Shown: positions 39,377 through 47,911 of the stretch, piece after piece
How the letters are laid out: every line of letters starts with the position of its first letter
Numbering within the stretch: position 1 is the first letter of the stretch
Source: Aliivibrio sp. EL58
Lineage (GTDB): Bacteria > Pseudomonadota > Gammaproteobacteria > Enterobacterales > Vibrionaceae
Assembly: GCF_900312675.1 (NCBI RefSeq)
Contig: NZ_OMPC01000010.1
Coordinates: 3,228 to 51,138, forward strand
DNA length: 47,911 nt
Direction of reading: 5' to 3'
Notes under the pieces: model-generated
What the model was told of the DNA's origin: nothing
What the model saw: the letters and a program-made list of their open reading frames with translations, nothing else
The model's database searches: none
Program-made: the position numbers and the translations under genes

Positions 39377-40642
39377 ATGATCGAAGTATCAACTTTAGGT
39401 GCACTCGCCGCCTTGACCGTTGCAATTACACTCATTTTGAAAAAAGTACCGCCGGCTTATGGCATGATCATTGGTGCTTTAATCGGTGGTATTGTTGGTG
39501 GCGTATCACTTACCGATACCGTGAACTTAATGATAGGTGGTGCACAAGGTATCGTTACTGCTGTGCTTCGTATTCTAGCTGCTGGTGTTCTTGCTGGTGT
39601 TCTAATCGAATCAGGCGCGGCAACCTCTATTGCAGAAACCATTGTAAAGAAAGTCGGTGAAACTCGTGCTTTATTTGCTTTAGCCGTCGCGACAATGATC
39701 TTAACCGCCGTTGGGGTTTTTGTGGATGTTGCTGTTATCACCGTAGCTCCTATTGCACTTGCCATTGCTCGTCGTGCTGACCTTTCAAAAATGGCGATTC
39801 TATTAGCTATGGTTGGTGGCGGTAAAGCGGGTAACGTTATGTCTCCGAATCCAAACGCCATTGCAGCTGCTGATGCCTTTAATGTTCCTTTAACTTCAGT
39901 AATGGCAGCAGGTGTGATCCCTGGCTTATTCGGCCTAGTCTTTGCCTATTTCATCGCTAAGAAATTAGTCAATAAAGGCAGTAAAGTTCAAGAGCACGAA
40001 GTCGTGGCAGTTGATCACTCTCGTTTACCAAGTTTCGTTACTTCAATCGTCGCTCCTCTTGTTGCTATTAGCCTTCTTGCGTTACGCCCTATCGCAGGGA
40101 TTAACGTTGACCCACTCATCGCACTTCCACTTGGTGGTTTATTAGGTGCTGTTGCTATGGGACGTTTTAGAGACACCAATCACTTTGCAGTATCAGGTCT
40201 TTCTCGTATGGCTCCAGTGGCGGTAATGCTACTTGGTACAGGTACTCTTGCAGGAATTATTGCGAACTCCGGACTTAAATCAGGCTTAATTGAAGTATTA
40301 ACCGCATCAGGTCTTCCTTCTTATTTATTAGCGCCTATTTCAGGTGCAATGATGTCACTCGCAACGGCATCAACGACCGCAGGTACAGCAGTTGCAGCCA
40401 GTGTCTTTAGTCATACTATTTTAGAGCTTGGTGTTCCCGCTCTTGCTGGTGCTGCAATGATCCACGCAGGTGCGACAGTATTAGATCACATGCCACACGG
40501 CAGCTTCTTTCATGCAACGGGTGGCGCAGTTCACATGGACATGAAAGAACGTTTAAAACTTATCCCATATGAATCAGCGGTTGGTCTTATGATCGCAACT
40601 GTTTCAACTCTCATCTTTGGTGTCTTCGGTTTATTTGTTTAA
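39377..40642 (+). CDS. GntP-family permease, probable glycerate (or related hydroxy-acid) uptake
   Basis: A 421-aa inner-membrane transporter of the gluconate:H+ symporter family with about twelve hydrophobic segments. It carries conserved family motifs such as PPAYGMIIGALIGG near the N-terminus, GGGKAGNVMSPNPNAIAAAD (about residues 147-166) and MIHAGATVLDHMPHGSFFHATGG near the C-terminus. The substrate is inferred from the neighbours: a CdaR regulator upstream and a glycerate kinase 12 bp downstream. Gluconate is less likely because no gluconate kinase or 6-phosphogluconate gene is nearby. Confidence 0.87.
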   Translation: MIEVSTLGALAALTVAITLILKKVPPAYGMIIGALIGGIVGGVSLTDTVNLMIGGAQGIVTAVLRILAAGVLAGVLIESGAATSIAETIVKKVGETRALFALAVATMILTAVGVFVDVAVITVAPIALAIARRADLSKMAILLAMVGGGKAGNVMSPNPNAIAAADAFNVPLTSVMAAGVIPGLFGLVFAYFIAKKLVNKGSKVQEHEVVAVDHSRLPSFVTSIVAPLVAISLLALRPIAGINVDPLIALPLGGLLGAVAMGRFRDTNHFAVSGLSRMAPVAVMLLGTGTLAGIIANSGLKSGLIEVLTASGLPSYLLAPISGAMMSLATASTTAGTAVAASVFSHTILELGVPALAGAAMIHAGATVLDHMPHGSFFHATGGAVHMDMKERLKLIPYESAVGLMIATVSTLIFGVFGLFV

Positions 40643-40654
40643 TAAGGCTTTATT

Positions 40655-41794
40655 ATGAAAATTGTTATTGCTCCTGATTCTTACAAAGAAAGTTTAACAG
40701 CGATGGAAGTCGCTACGGCAATTGAAGCTGGATTTAAACAGGTATTACCTAACGCTGAATATATTAAATTACCGATGGCCGATGGCGGTGAAGGGACAGT
40801 TCAATCTCTAATTGACGCTACTGGTGGGTCTATAATTGAACATACGGTTACCGCTCCTCTTGGTGAGAAAATAACTGGATTCTATGGATTACTTGGGGAT
40901 GGCCAAACCGCAATTATAGAAATGGCTGCGGCATCAGGCTTACACCTTGTTGAACCCAATTTCCGCAACCCTTTACACACTACAACCTATGGTACTGGCG
41001 AGTTAATTAAAGCGGCTCTCGATAAAGGTGTAAAACATATTATTGTCGGAATTGGTGGCAGTGCGACTAATGATGGCGGCATTGGCATGGCTCAAGCGCT
41101 TGGTATTAAGTTGCTGGATAAAGATGGTAATGATCTTGCTTTTGGTGGCGGTTCATTAGCACAGCTTGCAACGATCGATACTTCAAATAAAGATCCTCGT
41201 CTTGATGATATTACGCTTGAAGTCGCGTGCGATGTTGATAACCCATTATGTGGCCCCAAAGGTGCATCTTTCGTGTTTGGCCCACAGAAAGGGGCAACAC
41301 CTGAAATGGTCAAAACATTAGATTCAAACCTAAGCCATTACGCTGATGTGATGAAATCACAATTGAATAAAGACGTAAAAGATACAGAAGGCGCAGGTGC
41401 TGCAGGTGGTCTTGGTGCGGCGTTACTTGGTTTATTTGATGCGACGCTTCGACCTGGTATCGAAATTGTAATGGACGCGGTTAATTTAAGTAATGTGTTA
41501 TCTAAGGCAGATTTAGTGATTACAGGTGAAGGCCGAATTGATAGTCAAACCATCCATGGTAAAACGCCTATTGGTGTAGCAAGAACTGCGAAAAAGTTTG
41601 ATTTACCCGTTATTGGCATTGCTGGTTGTCTATCTGATGATTGCGCTGTTGTTCATGAATATGGCATTGATGCGGTATTTAGTGTCGTTCCTCGCTCTGT
41701 ATCTTTAGAAATAGCACTAAAAGAAGCCTCGATCAATGTTGAAAATACAGCAAGAAATGTCGCTGCAATTTATTCGATGCATATTAAAAAATAG
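40655..41794 (+). CDS. Glycerate kinase (GlxK/GarK family)
   Basis: A 379-aa cytosolic enzyme that phosphorylates D-glycerate, giving 2-phosphoglycerate in the GarK/GlxK type. The N-terminus MKIVIAPDSYKESLTAMEVA is diagnostic. The Gly-rich segments PMADGGEGTV (about residues 41-50) and GIGGSATNDGGIGMA (about 132-146), and TGEGRIDSQTIHGKTPIGVA (about 289-308), are the family's active-site regions. With the permease it makes a minimal route from external glycerate to lower glycolysis. It is followed by a terminator shared with the convergent acnB. Confidence 0.92.
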   Translation: MKIVIAPDSYKESLTAMEVATAIEAGFKQVLPNAEYIKLPMADGGEGTVQSLIDATGGSIIEHTVTAPLGEKITGFYGLLGDGQTAIIEMAAASGLHLVEPNFRNPLHTTTYGTGELIKAALDKGVKHIIVGIGGSATNDGGIGMAQALGIKLLDKDGNDLAFGGGSLAQLATIDTSNKDPRLDDITLEVACDVDNPLCGPKGASFVFGPQKGATPEMVKTLDSNLSHYADVMKSQLNKDVKDTEGAGAAGGLGAALLGLFDATLRPGIEIVMDAVNLSNVLSKADLVITGEGRIDSQTIHGKTPIGVARTAKKFDLPVIGIAGCLSDDCAVVHEYGIDAVFSVVPRSVSLEIALKEASINVENTARNVAAIYSMHIKK

Positions 41795-41840
41795 CGTATT
41801 TTTTTATTGAGTACGTTATTAATATAAAGTTATACGCAAT

Positions 41841-41869
41841 AAAAAAGCAGCCGATTTGGCTGCTTTTTT
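41841..41869. terminator. Bidirectional terminator between glycerate kinase gene and acnB
   Basis: Twelve-bp stem AAAAAAGCAGCC/GGCTGCTTTTTT with a 5-nt loop. The A-tract and T-tract flank the GC-rich core, so it works in both directions. Confidence 0.92.
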
Positions 41870-41885
41870 CATTTATAAACAAAGA

Positions 41886-44474
41886 TTAAGCGGGTTCTTG
41901 GAAAATAACTGTATCTGCTTTATCTGTATACTGACCCATTTTATGGAAGTTCAGGTAACGGTATGTATCAGCAGCTGTTGCATTTATCTTCTCTGCGTAC
42001 TCTAAGTACTCTTCTTTTGTTGGAATGCGGCCAAGAATCGCACCAACAGCAGAAAGCTCAGCAGAAGCCAGATAAACGTTCGCACCTGTACCCAAACGGT
42101 TCGGGAAGTTACGAGTAGAGGTAGACATTACTGTCGACTTGTCAGCAACACGGGCTTGGTTACCCATACATAGTGAACAGCCAGGAGTTTCGATACGTAC
42201 CCCAGCGCGACCGAAGATGCCGTAGTAGCCTTCTTCTGTCAGTTGGTCTTTATCCATCTTCGTTGGCGGAGCAACCCATAGACGAGTATTTAGTGAGCCG
42301 TTAAACTCCTCTAACATCTTACCTGCAGCACGGAAGTGACCAATGTTCGTCATACATGAACCGATAAACACTTCTTGAATCTCAGTGCCTTGAACATCAG
42401 ATAGAAGACGAGCATCATCTGGATCGTTTGGCGCACATAGGATTGGTTGGTCGATATCAGCAAGATCAATCTCGATAATATGAGCATATTCAGCATCTGA
42501 GTCAGCAGCTAACAACTCAGGGTTCGCTAACCACTCTTCCATTGCAATTATGCGACGTTCAATCGTACGAACATCACCGTAACCTTCGGCAATCATCCAT
42601 TTAAGCATGACGATATTCGAGTTTAAGTACTCAGAGATAGACTCTTGAGAAAGCTTCACTGTACAACCAGCTGCCGAACGTTCAGCCGATGCATCTGAAA
42701 GCTCAAATGCTTGCTCTACTGATAGGTGGTCAACACCTTCAATTTCTAGTACACGACCAGAGAATTCATTGATCTTACCGGCTTTTTCAACGGTCAGTAG
42801 GCCTTGCTTGATACCGTAAAGAGGAATTGCATGTACCAGGTCACGTAGCGTGATACCTGGTTGCATTTCACCTTTAAAGCGAACCAAGATTGATTCAGGC
42901 ATATCAAGAGGCATAACACCTGTTGCTGCAGCAAATGCTACTAAGCCAGAACCAGCAGGGAATGAAATACCTAGAGGGAAACGTGTATGTGAATCGCCAC
43001 CAGTACCTACAGTATCAGGCAATAACATGCGGTTTAGCCATGAGTGGATAACACCATCACCCGGACGCAGTGAAACACCCGCACGGTTCATGATGAAATC
43101 AGGTAGCGTATGGTGAGTGTTTACATCAACTGGTTTTGGGTATGCCGATGTGTGACAGAAAGACTGCATTACAAGATCAGCAGAGAAACCAAGACATGCT
43201 AGATCTTTAAGCTCATCACGAGTCATAGGACCGGTCGTATCTTGAGAACCTACCGTTGTCATTTTAGGTTCGCAGTACTGACCAGCACGCACACCTTCAA
43301 CGCCACACGCTTTACCAACCATCTTCTGAGCTAGCGTGTAGCCTTTATCAGATTCAGATGGATCGATTGGTTTAGCAAATAGATCCGTCTCAGCTAGGCC
43401 TAGAGCATCACGAGCACGGCCTGTTAAGCCACGACCAATAATCAGTGGAATACGACCACCAGCACGAACTTCATCTAAAAGTACTTTGCCCAACTCAAAA
43501 CTTGAGATCTCAGCACCGTCTTTACGAACAACACCTTCATAAGGGTAGATATCAATCACATCACCCATGTTCATATCTTGTACGTTCAACTCAATTGGTA
43601 GTGCACCTGAATCTTCCATAGTGTTGTAGAAGATTGGTGCAATTTTACCACCAAGACAAACACCGCCAGTACGCTTGTTTGGTACGAATGGGATATCTTC
43701 GCCCATGAACCAAAGCACTGAGTTTGTTGCCGATTTACGTGAAGAACCAGTACCAACAACATCACCAACGTAAGCCAGTGGAATGCCATCTTTCTGCATT
43801 TCTTCAATTTGATTGATTGGACCAACGCTACCTTGCTCATCAGGAGTGATACCATCACGCTCCATCTTCAGCATCGCTTTTGCGTGTACTGGAATATCAG
43901 GTCGTGACCACGCATCTGGCGCAGGAGATAAGTCATCGGTGTTGGTTTCACCAGTAACTTTAAATACTTTAACGGTGATCTTTTCTGCTACTTTGTTTTT
44001 CGCTGTAAACCATTCAGCATCAGCCCAAGATTGAAGTACTTGTTGTGCAAATACATTTCCAGCTTTCACTTTCTCTTCTACATCGTAGAACGCATCGAAC
44101 ATAAGTAGAGTATGAGACAGTGCTTTTACAGCGATAGGAGCAAGCTCTGTATCATCTAGTAGAGAAACTAGAGATTCAATGTTGTAACCACCTTGCATAG
44201 TACCAAGCAGTTCAGTCGCTTTTGCTTTGCTAACTAATGGGGACTCCACTTCACCCTTTGTAATTGCTGTTAAAAAACCAGCTTTAACATAAGCGGCTTC
44301 ATCAACACCAGGGGGAATGCGATTTTCTAGTAAATCAAGAATGACCTCTTCTTCACCTTGTGGCGGATTTTTTACTAGTTCAACTAATGCTGCTACCTGT
44401 TCAGCATTTAATGGTCTTGGGACCACACCTTCAGAAGCACGTTCTTCGACGTGTTTACGATAAGCTTCAAGCAC
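41886..44474 (-). CDS. acnB: Aconitate hydratase B
   Basis: An 862-aa cytosolic [4Fe-4S] enzyme of the TCA and methylcitrate cycles that interconverts citrate and isocitrate. The N-terminal HEAT-like domain (about residues 1-160) is specific to AcnB. The swivel domain precedes the Fe-S domains. Cluster cysteines are Cys766 and Cys769 in [11 protein letters not shown], plus the Cys in FIGSCMTN. The start is GTG, giving [13 protein letters not shown] as in other AcnB proteins, with GAGGA upstream. The order acnB then yacL of E. coli is kept on this strand but split by the glycerate module. Confidence 0.97.
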
Positions 44475-44694
44475 GACTTAATTCCTCACTTTCTGGTCTA
44501 CTCTTAATGAGTAAACATCCTTGGAAACGATTCAGTTTATATCCATTAACTTTTTAATTCTGTTATAAATCTCAATAAAACAAGAGAATATGTATCGGTA
44601 TAGACTAAAATGTGGCCAGATGATATCAAATTTAACTTAAAATTAAAATCTCACCACATCAAACAACATACGACTTATAGCGCAATTTTAAACA

Positions 44695-46962
44695 TTATAA
44701 TGTTGCACCAATGCTTAAATATACTGATTCATGATTTTGCTCTGTACGACCATAAGCTAAAATAATTGGTCCTAATGGCGAGTCTATTCCTGCGAAAATA
44801 GAACCTGAGGTATAAATAGGTGCGTCATCAAAATGCTCATCATTCCATAGCCCTCCATTTTCGACTGAAGCCCCTAAATATATAGGGGATTGAAATAATC
44901 CAAAATCGTTATCCATTAAACGATATCGATATACAAGACTAGCAAACGCCAAGTTTTGCCCTGTTAAGCTGTCTTTTGGTGTGCCTGATAAGCGTAAAAA
45001 TCCGCCGAGAGATTTGGGTTCTAACTGTAAATCTCCATTCTTATTTTCGACAACACCATATTCAAAATTACCGACGAAAGTATGACGAGAATAAGTCCAA
45101 GCAGCTCTGGTATTCACAGAAAACTCTATAACTGAATCTTTAGTTCCATCAATATCAATAACGCTGTCATCTACATTATCATGAGAATAAAGGTACTCTG
45201 AACGAACATAGAAACCTTTAGTTGGAAAGGTATAGTTATCTAATGTATCAAGGCGATACTGAGCAAAAACACCTTCTCGCGTGTAACTTGCATCGATACT
45301 TGAGATGCTACTAAAAGCGACGTCACCTTTAGTGTATCGCCCACCAATTCTAAAATCACTCCATAAACGACCTTGTAGCCCAAATGCAGCTTCAAAAACT
45401 AAGTCACTGTATTCCAATGGAAAATCATTATCAATTGAGCTTAATTCATTACCTGATAAAGAGAATTTTTTCTGCTCTACACTATAAGTAGACTTAAATG
45501 ATGTAAATAATAGTTGGTTAATTAAAAATGGGGTGTATAGCTCTGCAGAGATTAATTTATCTGTTCCCAACTCAAAGTTAGTTCTTAATTCTGAACGGTT
45601 ATCTCTAAAGCCAGTTAACTCAATATCAGTAAAATTAATCGACATCCCTAATGAATATTTACTCTGATTATCAAAGTCATCTTCTAATGCAAATCGAAAA
45701 TCTAAATAATTTGGTCCCCAACTCTTTTCCTTCACTTCAACAACTAGATCATGAGTTCCAGCTTCATTCTCTTCATAGTAATAATCGACCCTCTCAAATC
45801 TATCTATCACATATAAATCTCTTACATGTTCCTCAAGCTCACTCGCGCTATACGCTTTGTTTTCTTTTAAATTTAATCGATCACGCAGCATCTTCCCTGT
45901 ATATAAGCTGTTGTTTTTAATTACAATTTCATTAACTTGAATAGTTTCACCACGAACAAGTTGTTCTGTTTTATGTGTTTTCTCATCTAAATATGATTTA
46001 TAAGCACTTTTAGACAAGACTAACTTATCTAATGCTTTATGCTTCTCATAAGCGATATCGTAGCCTTTTTCATAGGCAAACGACATTTTATCAAACTCAG
46101 CGGTTTCCATTTTACCAACATGAGGTGAGAGCAAAATATCTTGTTCTTCTAATAATTTCTCTTGCTGAAGAGTACTGTTTTTTACAATGTAATTTGTTAA
46201 TTGTCCCATTACAGATAGATAACTAGAGATATCTTTTGCTTCTAAGTAATCAGAACCGATATCTACCGCAATGATAATATCTGCTCCCATCTCCCTTGCT
46301 ATATCAACAGGCATATTATTTACACTACCACCATCAACTAACAAGCGTCCTTCATATTCAACGGGTGGAAGGGCTCCAGGAACCGACATACTTGCCATCA
46401 TTGCTTCAGCTAAATTGCCATGATCTAATATAACAGGCTCTAGCTTTTCTATATCGGTGGCAACGGCTCTGAATGGGATAGGAAGATCATCAAATGACTC
46501 TAAATAAGGAACATTTCCTGAGGTTGTTCTCAGAATTTTGGCCATATTCTGGCCTTGAACAAATCCTTTTGGTGCTTTTAGTTCTGTGAATGAGAAGCCG
46601 ATATCAGTTCCTATTTGATAACGATCTTCATATTCTTTATCTCTAATTTGTCTTTCACTTCGTTCAACTTTATCTACAAATCCACTATTCCAATCAATAG
46701 AATCAATAAATACTTCGATTTCATCCGCACTTAGCCCTGACGCATACAAGCCTCCAATATAAGCTCCCATACTAGTGCCTGTAATATAATCAATTGGAAT
46801 ATTCATTTCTTCTAATGCTTTAAGTACACCAATATGGGCAGCACCTTTTGCACCGCCTCCCGCCAATACAAGACCGATTTTAGGGCGAGCTTCAGCAGCC
46901 AGCGATGCTGACGAAAATAGATATAGAGCAATAGAAGAAAATAAGAGAGGTTTGAAATGCAT
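44695..46962 (-). CDS. Patatin-like phospholipase with POTRA and outer-membrane barrel (type Vd autotransporter)
   Basis: A 755-aa protein with a signal peptide (residues 1-23, ending SASLAA) and a patatin domain (about 25-310) with an intact dyad: Ser64 in GTSMG and Asp210 in DGGSVNN, plus the oxyanion loop GGGAKGAAH. A single POTRA-like domain (about 335-412) and a BamA/Omp85-type 16-strand barrel (about 415-755) follow, ending YLSIGATL. This is the PlpD/FplA layout of type Vd secretion, in which the lipase is moved to the cell surface. It is predicted to be an active class A1 phospholipase. No terminator is evident between it and acnB, 220 bp downstream. Confidence 0.9.
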   Translation of the reverse strand: MHFKPLLFSSIALYLFSSASLAAEARPKIGLVLAGGGAKGAAHIGVLKALEEMNIPIDYITGTSMGAYIGGLYASGLSADEIEVFIDSIDWNSGFVDKVERSERQIRDKEYEDRYQIGTDIGFSFTELKAPKGFVQGQNMAKILRTTSGNVPYLESFDDLPIPFRAVATDIEKLEPVILDHGNLAEAMMASMSVPGALPPVEYEGRLLVDGGSVNNMPVDIAREMGADIIIAVDIGSDYLEAKDISSYLSVMGQLTNYIVKNSTLQQEKLLEEQDILLSPHVGKMETAEFDKMSFAYEKGYDIAYEKHKALDKLVLSKSAYKSYLDEKTHKTEQLVRGETIQVNEIVIKNNSLYTGKMLRDRLNLKENKAYSASELEEHVRDLYVIDRFERVDYYYEENEAGTHDLVVEVKEKSWGPNYLDFRFALEDDFDNQSKYSLGMSINFTDIELTGFRDNRSELRTNFELGTDKLISAELYTPFLINQLLFTSFKSTYSVEQKKFSLSGNELSSIDNDFPLEYSDLVFEAAFGLQGRLWSDFRIGGRYTKGDVAFSSISSIDASYTREGVFAQYRLDTLDNYTFPTKGFYVRSEYLYSHDNVDDSVIDIDGTKDSVIEFSVNTRAAWTYSRHTFVGNFEYGVVENKNGDLQLEPKSLGGFLRLSGTPKDSLTGQNLAFASLVYRYRLMDNDFGLFQSPIYLGASVENGGLWNDEHFDDAPIYTSGSIFAGIDSPLGPIILAYGRTEQNHESVYLSIGATL

Positions 46963-47087
46963 GATGTCATCCTTGAAATAGCAATATTAAAAGAATACAG
47001 GATGAAAGGTGATAGAGAAAGATAAGTAGCTGAGTTTTGTTTTAATTGATTATGTTAATGAATAATTTTATACCAGTGTAAAAAAGC

Positions 47088-47110
47088 CTAGCCAACTGAA
47101 TTATCACTTC
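47088..47110 (-). pseudogene. Truncated remnant (copy C) of the tRNA-Asp-derived repeat
   Basis: The minus strand shows the same 5' flank as the other copies (GAATAGACACTGC), then GAAGTGATAATTCAGTTGGC, the acceptor-strand and D-arm part of tRNA-Asp. The sequence then jumps directly to GGCTTTTTTAC, the 3' half of the array terminator. The rest of the unit is deleted. Its 5' end is exactly 189 bp from that of copy B. Confidence 0.75.
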
Positions 47111-47150
47111 GCAGTGTCTATTCTGCATCATTTTACCTTTAGACAGACGT

Positions 47151-47181
47151 AAAAAAGCCCTAATCTTTCGATTAGGGCTTT
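47151..47181 (-). terminator. Intrinsic terminator of repeat copy B
   Basis: Twelve-bp stem AAAGCCCTAATC/GATTAGGGCTTT; on the minus strand it has a GAAA tetraloop and runs into TTTTTTACG. Confidence 0.9.
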
Positions 47182-47191
47182 CTTGGTATAG

Positions 47192-47299
47192 TGGCGGAGT
47201 GGACGGGACTTTCTATTAACCTTAAAAACGACACGTCCCCCGGTGTGACAGGCCGCTAAGCTCTCCAATAAAAAGTCTAACCAACTGAACTACCACTCC
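47192..47299 (-). pseudogene. tRNA-Asp-derived repeat, copy B (108 nt, expanded anticodon arm)
   Basis: The acceptor stem is intact (GGAGTGG/CCACTCC), with discriminator G and encoded CCA. The D-arm sequence and anticodon loop CTGTCAC match the functional tRNA-Asp. The normal T-arm is absent. Compared with the 77-nt tRNA, about 16 nt are added 5' and 15 nt 3' of the anticodon arm, and these additions are complementary: GACTTTTTATT with AATAGAAAGTC (11 pairs including one G-U), and GAGAGC with GTTTTT (6 pairs, three of them G-U). It cannot form a standard tRNA. Whether it is an inert pseudogene or a structured RNA is open. Confidence 0.8.
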
Positions 47300-47339
47300 G
47301 AAGTGTCTATTCTGCATCGCTTTACTTTTAGACAGACGT

Positions 47340-47370
47340 AAAAAAGCCCTAATCTTCCGATTAGGGCTTT
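47340..47370 (-). terminator. Intrinsic terminator of repeat copy A
   Basis: Same 12-bp stem as its neighbours with a GGAA loop on the minus strand (still a GNRA type), followed by a T-tract. Confidence 0.9.
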
Positions 47371-47380
47371 CTTGATATAG

Positions 47381-47488
47381 TGACGGAGTGGACGGGACTT
47401 TCTATTAACCTTGAAAGCGACACGTCCCTCGGCGTGACAGGCCGCTAAGCTCTCCAATAGAAAGTCTAACCAACTGAACTGCCACTTC
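47381..47488 (-). pseudogene. tRNA-Asp-derived repeat, copy A (108 nt, expanded anticodon arm)
   Basis: Same architecture and length as copy B, with eight differences, all transitions. The acceptor stem has one A-C mismatch (GAAGTGG) and the 3' end reads TCA instead of CCA. The inserted arms pair perfectly here: GACTTTCTATT/AATAGAAAGTC (11 bp) and GAGAGC/GCTTTC (6 bp with one G-U). The anticodon stem is CGGC/GCCG around CTGTCAC. The T-arm is missing. It lies 188 bp from the tRNA-Asp 3' end, with an intrinsic terminator on each side. Confidence 0.8.
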
Positions 47489-47528
47489 GCAGTGTCTATT
47501 CTGCATCATTTTACTTTTATACAGACGT

Positions 47529-47561
47529 AAAAAAGCCCTAATCTTTCGATTAGGGCTTTTT
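47529..47561 (-). terminator. Intrinsic terminator after tRNA-Asp (end of the rrn operon)
   Basis: Stem AAAAAGCCCTAATC/GATTAGGGCTTTTT with a GAAA loop on the minus strand, followed by a T-tract. It is the strongest member of the three repeated terminators. Confidence 0.92.
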
Positions 47562-47568
47562 CAAATAG

Positions 47569-47645
47569 TGGCGGAGTGGACGGGACTCGAACCCGCGACC
47601 CCCGGCGTGACAGGCCGGTATTCTAACCAACTGAACTACCACTCC
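47569..47645 (-). tRNA. tRNA-Asp (anticodon GUC)
   Basis: A 77-nt cloverleaf on the minus strand. Acceptor stem GGAGTGG/CCACTCC, discriminator G and encoded CCA; anticodon stem CCGGC/GCCGG around CTGTCAC, with GTC anticodon; T-arm GCGGG-TTCGAGT-CCCGT. It lies about 90 nt downstream of 5S on the same strand, as the distal tRNA of an rRNA operon. It is the intact parent-like copy of the tandem array to its left. Confidence 0.97.
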
Positions 47646-47677
47646 GCAGTGTCTATTCAGCATAATGCTATTACTTA

Positions 47678-47728
47678 AATAAAACATATTATGTTTTATT
47701 CTGTTTTTATCTTTAAAAAGATAAAAAC
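47678..47728 (-). other. Two strong AT-rich hairpins between 5S rRNA and tRNA-Asp
   Basis: One is a perfect palindrome with 11-bp arms AATAAAACATA/TATGTTTTATT and a single central base (47678-47700). The other has 12-bp arms GTTTTTATCTTT/AAAGATAAAAAC (47703-47728). They lie in the transcribed 5S-tRNA spacer and probably serve as RNase cleavage or folding signals for 5S and tRNA maturation. Confidence 0.6.
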
Positions 47729-47735
47729 TAATTTA

Positions 47736-47855
47736 AAGCCTGGCGATGTCCTACTCTCACATGGGGAAACCCCACACTACCATCGGCGCTATTACGTTTC
47801 ACTTCTGAGTTCGGCATGGGATCAGGTGGGTCCATAACGCTATGGTCGCCAAGCA
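47736..47855 (-). rRNA. rrf: 5S ribosomal RNA
   Basis: A 120-nt minus-strand gene from TGCTTGGCGACC to GCCAGGCTT, containing CCATGCCGAACTCAGAAGTG and GGTAGTGTGGGG, the diagnostic 5S core. The terminal stem TGCTTGGC/GCCAGGCT pairs with wobble. The preceding 23S gene must lie right of the window. It ends the right-hand rRNA operon together with tRNA-Asp. Confidence 0.97.
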
Positions 47856-47911
47856 AATTCTTTCTATCTACCTCAATAAGAGATAAATAATAATCTGGAA
47901 AGCTGTGTATG

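Follow-up and report, generated by a model that had tools for sequence, protein, structure and literature searches.

Behind an rRNA operon of Aliivibrio sp. EL58, an intact tRNA-Asp gene is followed by two 108-nt sequences that share much of its frame and carry additional segments complementary to each other. Are these tRNA duplicates on their way to decay, or a rebuilt RNA that is being kept, and how could two separate inserts come to match? The stretch of DNA analysed, hereafter the window, comprises 47,911 nt, and the two tRNA-Asp-like sequences are present beside the intact gene, on the minus strand, where a preliminary description of the window had located them.

Layout of the array in the window

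The features of the locus are, in the direction of transcription of the rRNA operon and with the evidence in brackets:

47738..47853, minus strand: 5S rRNA, end of the rRNA operon (Rfam RF00001, 101.3 bits)
47646-47658, minus strand: leader GAATAGACACTGC before the true tRNA-Asp (sequence)
47569..47645, minus strand: intact tRNA-Asp (GUC), parent of the elements (ARAGORN; Rfam RF00005, 70.4 bits)
47530..47561, minus strand: terminator-like hairpin GCCCTAATC/GATTAGGGC with an A run and a T run, 3' of tRNA-Asp (inverted repeat I6, 14 bp)
47489..47501, minus strand: leader GAATAGACACTGC before copy 1, identical to the leader of the true tRNA-Asp (sequence)
47381..47488, minus strand: tRNA-Asp-like element copy 1, 108 nt (repeats and sequence)
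47456..47466, minus strand: strand a of the new helix in copy 1 (GACTTTCTATT), within the 5' insert (helix alignment, sequence)
47449..47454, minus strand: strand b in copy 1 (GAGAGC) (helix alignment, sequence)
47430..47444, minus strand: anticodon arm of copy 1, CGGC-CTGTCAC-GCCG (sequence)
47413..47418, minus strand: strand c in copy 1 (GCTTTC), within the 3' insert (helix alignment, sequence)
47407..47412, minus strand: AAGGTT bulge of copy 1 (sequence)
47396..47406, minus strand: strand d in copy 1 (AATAGAAAGTC), partner of strand a (helix alignment, sequence)
47341..47373, minus strand: terminator-like hairpin 3' of copy 1 (inverted repeat I8)
47192..47299, minus strand: tRNA-Asp-like element copy 2, 108 nt, with perfect acceptor stem and CCA (repeats and sequence)
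47267..47277, minus strand: strand a in copy 2 (GACTTTTTATT) (sequence)
47207..47217, minus strand: strand d in copy 2 (AATAGAAAGTC) (sequence)
47152..47184, minus strand: terminator-like hairpin 3' of copy 2 (inverted repeat I7)
47087..47110, minus strand: third copy, truncated to the 5' acceptor strand and the D arm (direct repeat families D1 and D3; sequence)

The tandem units lie 3' of the tRNA-Asp gene in the same orientation and repeat with a period of 189 nt, each consisting of its own GAATAGACACTGC-like leader, the element and a terminator-like hairpin. The hairpin at 47530..47561 is missing from the output of a simple terminator scan. The only promoter-like site in the scanned stretch is located upstream of tRNA-Asp and none lies inside the units, so that their transcription would need read-through of the hairpins. 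A protein gene on the minus strand, which we take from its GGGAKGA motif to be a patatin-like phospholipase, starts at 46962, 125 nt behind the truncated third copy and in the same direction as the rRNA operon. The array may insulate this gene from rRNA transcription.

Both full copies retain the discriminator G, the 5' D-arm sequence and the GUC anticodon loop (CUGUCAC), as had been described, and end in CCA or TCA. The acceptor strands, also said to be retained, pair at all seven positions in copy 2 and with one A/C mismatch in seven in copy 1. The T arm had been reported as absent; its loop and 5' stem strand are indeed gone, but the letters of the 3' stem strand (GTCCCGT) are left. The two-sided complementary inserts are present: GACUUUCUAUU/AAUAGAAAGUC form 11 bp that join the insert following the D arm to the sequence preceding the 3' acceptor strand, and GAGAGC/GCUUUC form 6 bp further in, including G-U pairing. 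With the Rfam tRNA model RF00005, the true tRNA-Asp was the sole match in 40000-47911, and likewise in 46950-47911 at E values up to 10. No Rfam family matched the window elements at or above its threshold; weaker matches (Thr_leader and others), all below threshold, were taken as chance.

Relatives and their tie to tRNA-Asp

The genome contains the same elements elsewhere: on contig C2, three follow another rRNA-linked tRNA-Asp, and on contig C9, two follow a different tRNA-Asp that belongs to a tRNA-Ser/tRNA-Asp cluster. Degraded or partial copies are present on contigs C1 and C8. In the Ser-Asp cluster, the acceptor strands of the elements are those of the local tRNA-Asp (GGAGCGG/CCGCTCC, as against GGAGTGG at the rRNA operons), and the inserts belong to the same family as in the window. 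Within the genus, at least one copy of at least 85 model positions was found in 12 of 14 genomes, and none in the fetched pieces of G003 and G008. The 65 fetched pieces gave 68 such copies; eight of them, three from another genus and five degraded, were left out before the first alignment, and alignment A1 holds 60 sequences (55 of the 60 retained Aliivibrio copies and 5 of 12 Photobacterium copies). Many copies share a different, GTTAACGTAGCCA-like 3' end, which leaves the 5' acceptor strand without a partner (A1 columns 99-111; L157, L165); this end occurs in Aliivibrio, Photobacterium and, in altered form, Vibrio.

Three genomes of the genus carry, at the same site inside the D-arm part of a Ser-Asp-linked element, an insertion of about 160 nt whose ends are inverted (CATCACT...ATTAAT type; L060:1151-1310, L079:3241-3400, L082:963-1122). 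It looks MITE-like and may hold a short coding remnant. The insertion separates the D arm from the rest of the element, which by eye is still conserved in the three genomes. In addition, a transposase-like reading frame, presumably IS110-like, lies directly behind the hairpin of one element (L079:1380 onwards).

Beyond the genus, genomes were searched with a pattern of tRNA-Asp carrying 14-40 bases between the D arm and the anticodon arm; as the patterns demand an insert at this place, they cannot show that inserts occur only there. Among 329 Vibrionaceae genomes, 47 match (two of them doubtfully), from 4 of 13 genera, against two matches of the reversed pattern. By genus, these are 11/14 genomes of Aliivibrio, 19/52 of g8 (Photobacterium), 16/227 of g12 (Vibrio, including the two doubtful ones) and 1/2 of g6. 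An order-wide draw gave 19 matching genomes out of 394 and none with the reversed pattern. Named genomes contributed 59 matching stretches, and the named records belong to Aliivibrio (A. fischeri, A. finisterrensis, A. sifiae and others), Photobacterium, Vibrio, Moritella, Shewanella and Parashewanella, and further to Psychromonas, Colwellia, Pseudoalteromonas, Psychrosphaera, Ferrimonas and an Alteromonadaceae bin. A match in Pseudomonas (L192) was discarded as an assembly artefact because of an N within a partial duplication. Relatives sought in Vibrionaceae, as the preliminary description had proposed, are found there and in other genera as well, and the window elements are no local oddity. 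The same design with halves of tRNA-Ser(UGA) or of tRNA-Lys was found in 0/121 genomes each; tRNA-Lys halves are present at normal spacing in the EL58 genome.

The relatives fall into two classes. A T arm with a TTCGA loop is present in 54 of 170 distinct element strings and absent from the other 116, the window copies among them. Some relatives carry other inserts, in the T loop, in the variable region or between the T arm and the acceptor, and two Photobacterium elements are extended by another 27-30 nt or so, inserted after the anticodon loop (L129:1423-1557, L139:776-910). A variable-region hairpin, GCC-(GAA, GUGA or GCA)-GGC, is common to the T-arm relatives L123, L148, L163, L260 and L264, whose hosts are Photobacterium, Vibrio, Moritella and Shewanella. 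Eight loci of other genera gave only rRNA and tRNA matches in Rfam. Several T-arm relatives are called tRNA-Ser(UGA) or tRNA-Gly(ACC) by ARAGORN (L123:289-386, L125:1489-1586, L137:606-703, L175:838-929), and such ARAGORN and Rfam tRNA calls are likely misannotations.

Pairing of the inserts, and their probable origin and constraint

The extended arm described for both copies was recovered in part. Both beat dinucleotide shuffles, with z of -2.14 (6/200 shuffles as good) and -2.16 (4/200), the true tRNA-Asp being at -1.25 (16/200), but only copy 2 folds much as described: the minimum-energy fold of 47299-47192 is the extended arm, that of 47488-47381 two local hairpins. For four relatives, z was -1.89, -2.39, -0.68 and -1.72, and the one at -0.68 is no better than its shuffles (50/200). 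Across alignment A1, cells are paired at 98.0% in the 11-bp helix, 93.9% in the 6-bp helix, 92.5% in the anticodon stem and 68.1% in the acceptor stem. In the clade of the window, the local hairpins are kept less (321/359 and 324/360 cells) than the 11-bp helix (646/659). An origin of the new arm from the 5' insert alone was considered and dropped, since local hairpin energies lie barely under those of mononucleotide shuffles (mean z -0.54, s.e.m. 0.25, 28 representatives).

Covariation that would prove the extended helix did not emerge. In A1, the four commonest variants of the new helices retain pairing through one-sided changes; two-sided (compensatory) changes occur at 0 of their 17 pairs, and those counted over the whole structure fall in the acceptor helix. 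Moreover, own and swapped inserts pair equally well across the order (p 0.33 with 46 representatives, p 0.47 with 38), and a lineage-specific coevolution of the inserts was abandoned on this ground. As own inserts fit no better than swapped ones, the complementarity looks old and shared rather than tuned in each lineage. Own inserts pair slightly better than shuffled 3' inserts (mean z -0.79, s.e.m. 0.23, 38 representatives); the same test on the T-arm class gave 0.08 (21 representatives). A candidate compensatory change in the T stem of a Shewanella kaireitica element (L196) was rejected because the true tRNA-Asp there has the same T stem, and the fetched pieces of the Moritella-like loci L244, L260 and L262 contain no true tRNA-Asp with which the T stem could be compared. 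Two genomes with doubtful matches (G031 and G239) were excluded from the tests of insert energy, own and swapped inserts, homology and inverted homology, and from the first of the counts on loop and insert motifs.

The inserts themselves can be compared between lineages. CT occurs in the first four bases of 101 of the 106 distinct 5' inserts, of which 73 continue as CTNTT. The 5' inserts look homologous throughout, across several bacterial families. Inverted homology was assessed on 150 elements of both classes. In the class without a T arm, reverse-complemented 3' inserts were aligned with the 5' insert joined to the 5' anticodon-arm strand, and they fit better than mononucleotide shuffles (39 representatives, mean z +1.84, s.e.m. 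0.24; p<0.05 in 16/39 and p<0.01 in 8/39). In the T-arm class, mean z was +0.22 (s.e.m. 0.21, 18 representatives; p<0.05 in 1/18). Judged by these alignments, the 3' insert of the class without a T arm repeats, in inverted orientation, the 5' insert together with a portion of the anticodon arm. For example, the unpaired AAGGT of the window 3' insert, which in copy 1 has no ACCTT partner in the 5' insert of the same copy, finds a possible partner in the 5' inserts of certain relatives from Photobacterium and Vibrio. ACCTTGA, exact or slightly varied, is present in 21/108 distinct 5' inserts and the 3' motif in 47/113 tails without a T arm (the two doubtful matches being included in both totals), and one element, L159, inferred to be from Vibrio, retains motifs of both the ACCTT and the AAGGT type.

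A decaying pseudogene evolves like its surroundings, and this is not what was found in the Ser-Asp-linked copies. Their elements are 90.4% identical over 36 genome pairs, compared with 72.4% in the 150 nt upstream and 67.5% in the 120 nt downstream (nine Aliivibrio genomes, one copy each, that is 9 of the 15 listed Ser-Asp-linked copies, gaps excluded and the three copies split by the insertion omitted). The two inserts are 86.8% and 92.9% identical and the tRNA-derived parts 86.8 to 93.2%. An element about 90% identical between flanks of 68-72% across nine genomes looks selected, and the claim that these are not ordinary decaying tRNA pseudogenes was borne out. The conservation suggests that the hairpin core, and not the acceptor stem, is what selection acts on, and purifying selection probably keeps the element as a non-coding RNA. 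Part of this conservation could be mimicked by exchange between species, which can likewise keep copies alike. In a tree of the core, which is based on few columns and has no branch at the highest support mark, copies group by locus type, which takes 2 changes as against 32 for genome.

The preliminary description had left a choice between a tRNA-derived structured RNA and a template-switch product amplified in tandem, and each appears to hold in part: the inverted homology of the inserts points to a template switch, and their conservation between species to an RNA under constraint. We give an even chance to the reading that these elements are an old family of tRNA-Asp duplicates that would have been made into hairpins by template switching and would now be a constrained RNA. 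In these duplicates, an insert separates the D arm from the anticodon arm. A template switch in replication may then have put the reverse complement of this insert and of part of the anticodon arm in the place of the T arm; parts would later have been lost, and halves replaced through gene conversion from tRNA-Asp. The resulting RNA could fold as a rod made of the acceptor strands, the extended anticodon arm and the old anticodon loop. The unit of leader, element and terminator-like hairpin was multiplied in tandem, both behind the tRNA-Asp at rRNA operon ends and in the tRNA-Ser/tRNA-Asp cluster. The RNA would be made by read-through of the rRNA/tRNA transcript and then processed, and our guess at its likeliest role is that, as a structured decoy or sponge, it would sequester a protein that binds tRNA or RNA. 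A wider proposal is advanced tentatively: the elements may constitute an unnamed, widespread class of non-decoding RNA in marine Gammaproteobacteria, which arose when a template switch exchanged the T arm of a tRNA-Asp duplicate for an inverted copy of its own insert and anticodon arm, and which is transcribed together with rRNA and tRNA-Asp in amounts that follow the growth rate and serves as a structured decoy for a protein that binds tRNA or degrades RNA.

The main competing explanation is a neutral array whose copies conversion and template switching keep similar, the elements being by-products of a tandem tRNA-Asp duplication, of template-switch hairpins and of gene conversion with the neighbouring tRNA-Asp, and their RNA having no function; we regard this as possible, at distinctly less than an even chance. 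The accessible account of PMC8794818 has template switching alone able to create and maintain hairpins. The tRNA-derived parts do track the local tRNA-Asp, as seen in the GGAGCGG and GGAGTGG acceptors and in the T stem GCGAG that the Shewanella kaireitica element shares with its local tRNA-Asp. Copies with a broken acceptor, truncated copies, a strongly patchy distribution and the equal pairing of swapped inserts also speak for such an array. The inserts, for which tRNA-Asp offers no template, nevertheless stay 87-93% identical across nine species between flanks of 68-72%. Conversion within a single genome does not alone make species diverge more slowly; that the inserts are conserved between species therefore counts against the neutral array.

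It is improbable that the selected part is the repeated hairpin, acting as a terminator array behind a strong rRNA operon with the tRNA-like part carried along. A terminator-like hairpin ends both full units of the window and the gene starting at 46962 follows in the same direction, but the flanks that bear the hairpins are less conserved than the element and, judged by eye, other genera have different hairpins but inserts that remain homologous.

An origin as mobile element or as remnant of an attachment site is very improbable. Several loci carry copies, and three elements contain the short insertion with inverted repeats, but the window elements have no match in plasmid and phage collections, nor has the search pattern in viral contigs, and copies stay beside tRNA-Asp. 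Among 172 distinct places (fetched loci only, two doubtful matches included), an intact tRNA-Asp lies within 1.5 kb upstream on the same strand at 115; at 51 the fetched piece ends, and 6 have no tRNA-Asp upstream, two of these having one downstream, which makes 115 of 121 decidable places.

Scarcely credible is a tRNA that still functions, possibly with an extra arm: T-arm relatives retain UGU at loop positions 33-35 in 52/54 cases, L123 exceeds the Rfam tRNA threshold (32.6 bits) and ARAGORN calls tRNAs at four loci, but the window copies, which still carry the CUGUCAC loop, have no T arm and fail to match the tRNA model even with E values up to 10, and UGU is kept in 64 and lost in 48 of 112 elements without a T arm. 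In A1, the loop changes concentrate on U33 (20/59), G34 (6/59) and U35 (14/60), with 1, 1, 0 and 2 of 60 at the other four loop positions, and many of them are inherited together. With the T arm missing and loop positions 33-35 drifting, the element is probably no longer a decoding tRNA.

Relation to known systems

The literature search, whose coverage of subscription journals was poor, found no publication on these elements; the available part of one report mentions four tRNAs of Photobacterium profundum missed by prediction (PMC3505737), which could not be placed here. The elements have consequences for annotation, given the relatives called tRNA-Ser(UGA) or tRNA-Gly(ACC) by ARAGORN. They offer a natural series, across bacterial families, of a tRNA gene rebuilt into another sequence with its parent adjoining as a control, in which template switching as a source of RNA hairpins becomes testable on real cases. 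If expressed, they would give well-studied symbionts and deep-sea bacteria a further small RNA, one linked to rRNA.

Among tRNAs, those of class II carry a long variable arm, and the variable-region hairpin of some T-arm relatives (GCC-GAA-GGC or similar) is like it. Unlike class II tRNAs, these relatives have a further insert between the D arm and the anticodon arm, and their D stem is partly lost. The closest design is that of rtT RNA in the tyrT operon of Escherichia coli, where tandem repeats of less than 200 bp reportedly follow the tRNA gene, include part of the tRNA and belong to the same transcript. The Asp elements likewise form tandem units behind a tRNA gene, in its orientation and with a 189-nt period. 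The rtT repeats are said to contain only the 3' end of tRNA-Tyr, whereas the Asp elements keep the frame of tRNA-Asp with an insert and its inverted copy, and rtT is absent among the weak Rfam matches listed for the window elements.

Template switching can create a hairpin through a reverse-complement copy in a single mutational event, according to the accessible text of PMC8794818, and a reverse-complement copy making a hairpin is what the Asp elements have in common with those cases. The hairpins treated there, as far as that text goes, illustrate a mutation process in RNA genes and not a family derived from tRNA-Asp. With regard to fate, the nearest parallel is tRNA-Other, a pseudo-tRNA of Bacillus cereus that, in the available account, is non-decoding, retained and part of larger RNAs (PMC3399842), so that in both cases a non-decoding tRNA-like element is kept in the genome. 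That account places tRNA-Other beside a genomic island and, in its accessible parts, describes neither a tandem array nor inverted inserts, and no link with tRNA-Asp (PMC3399842). The Asp elements resemble rtT in design and tRNA-Other in fate, and we file them under neither.
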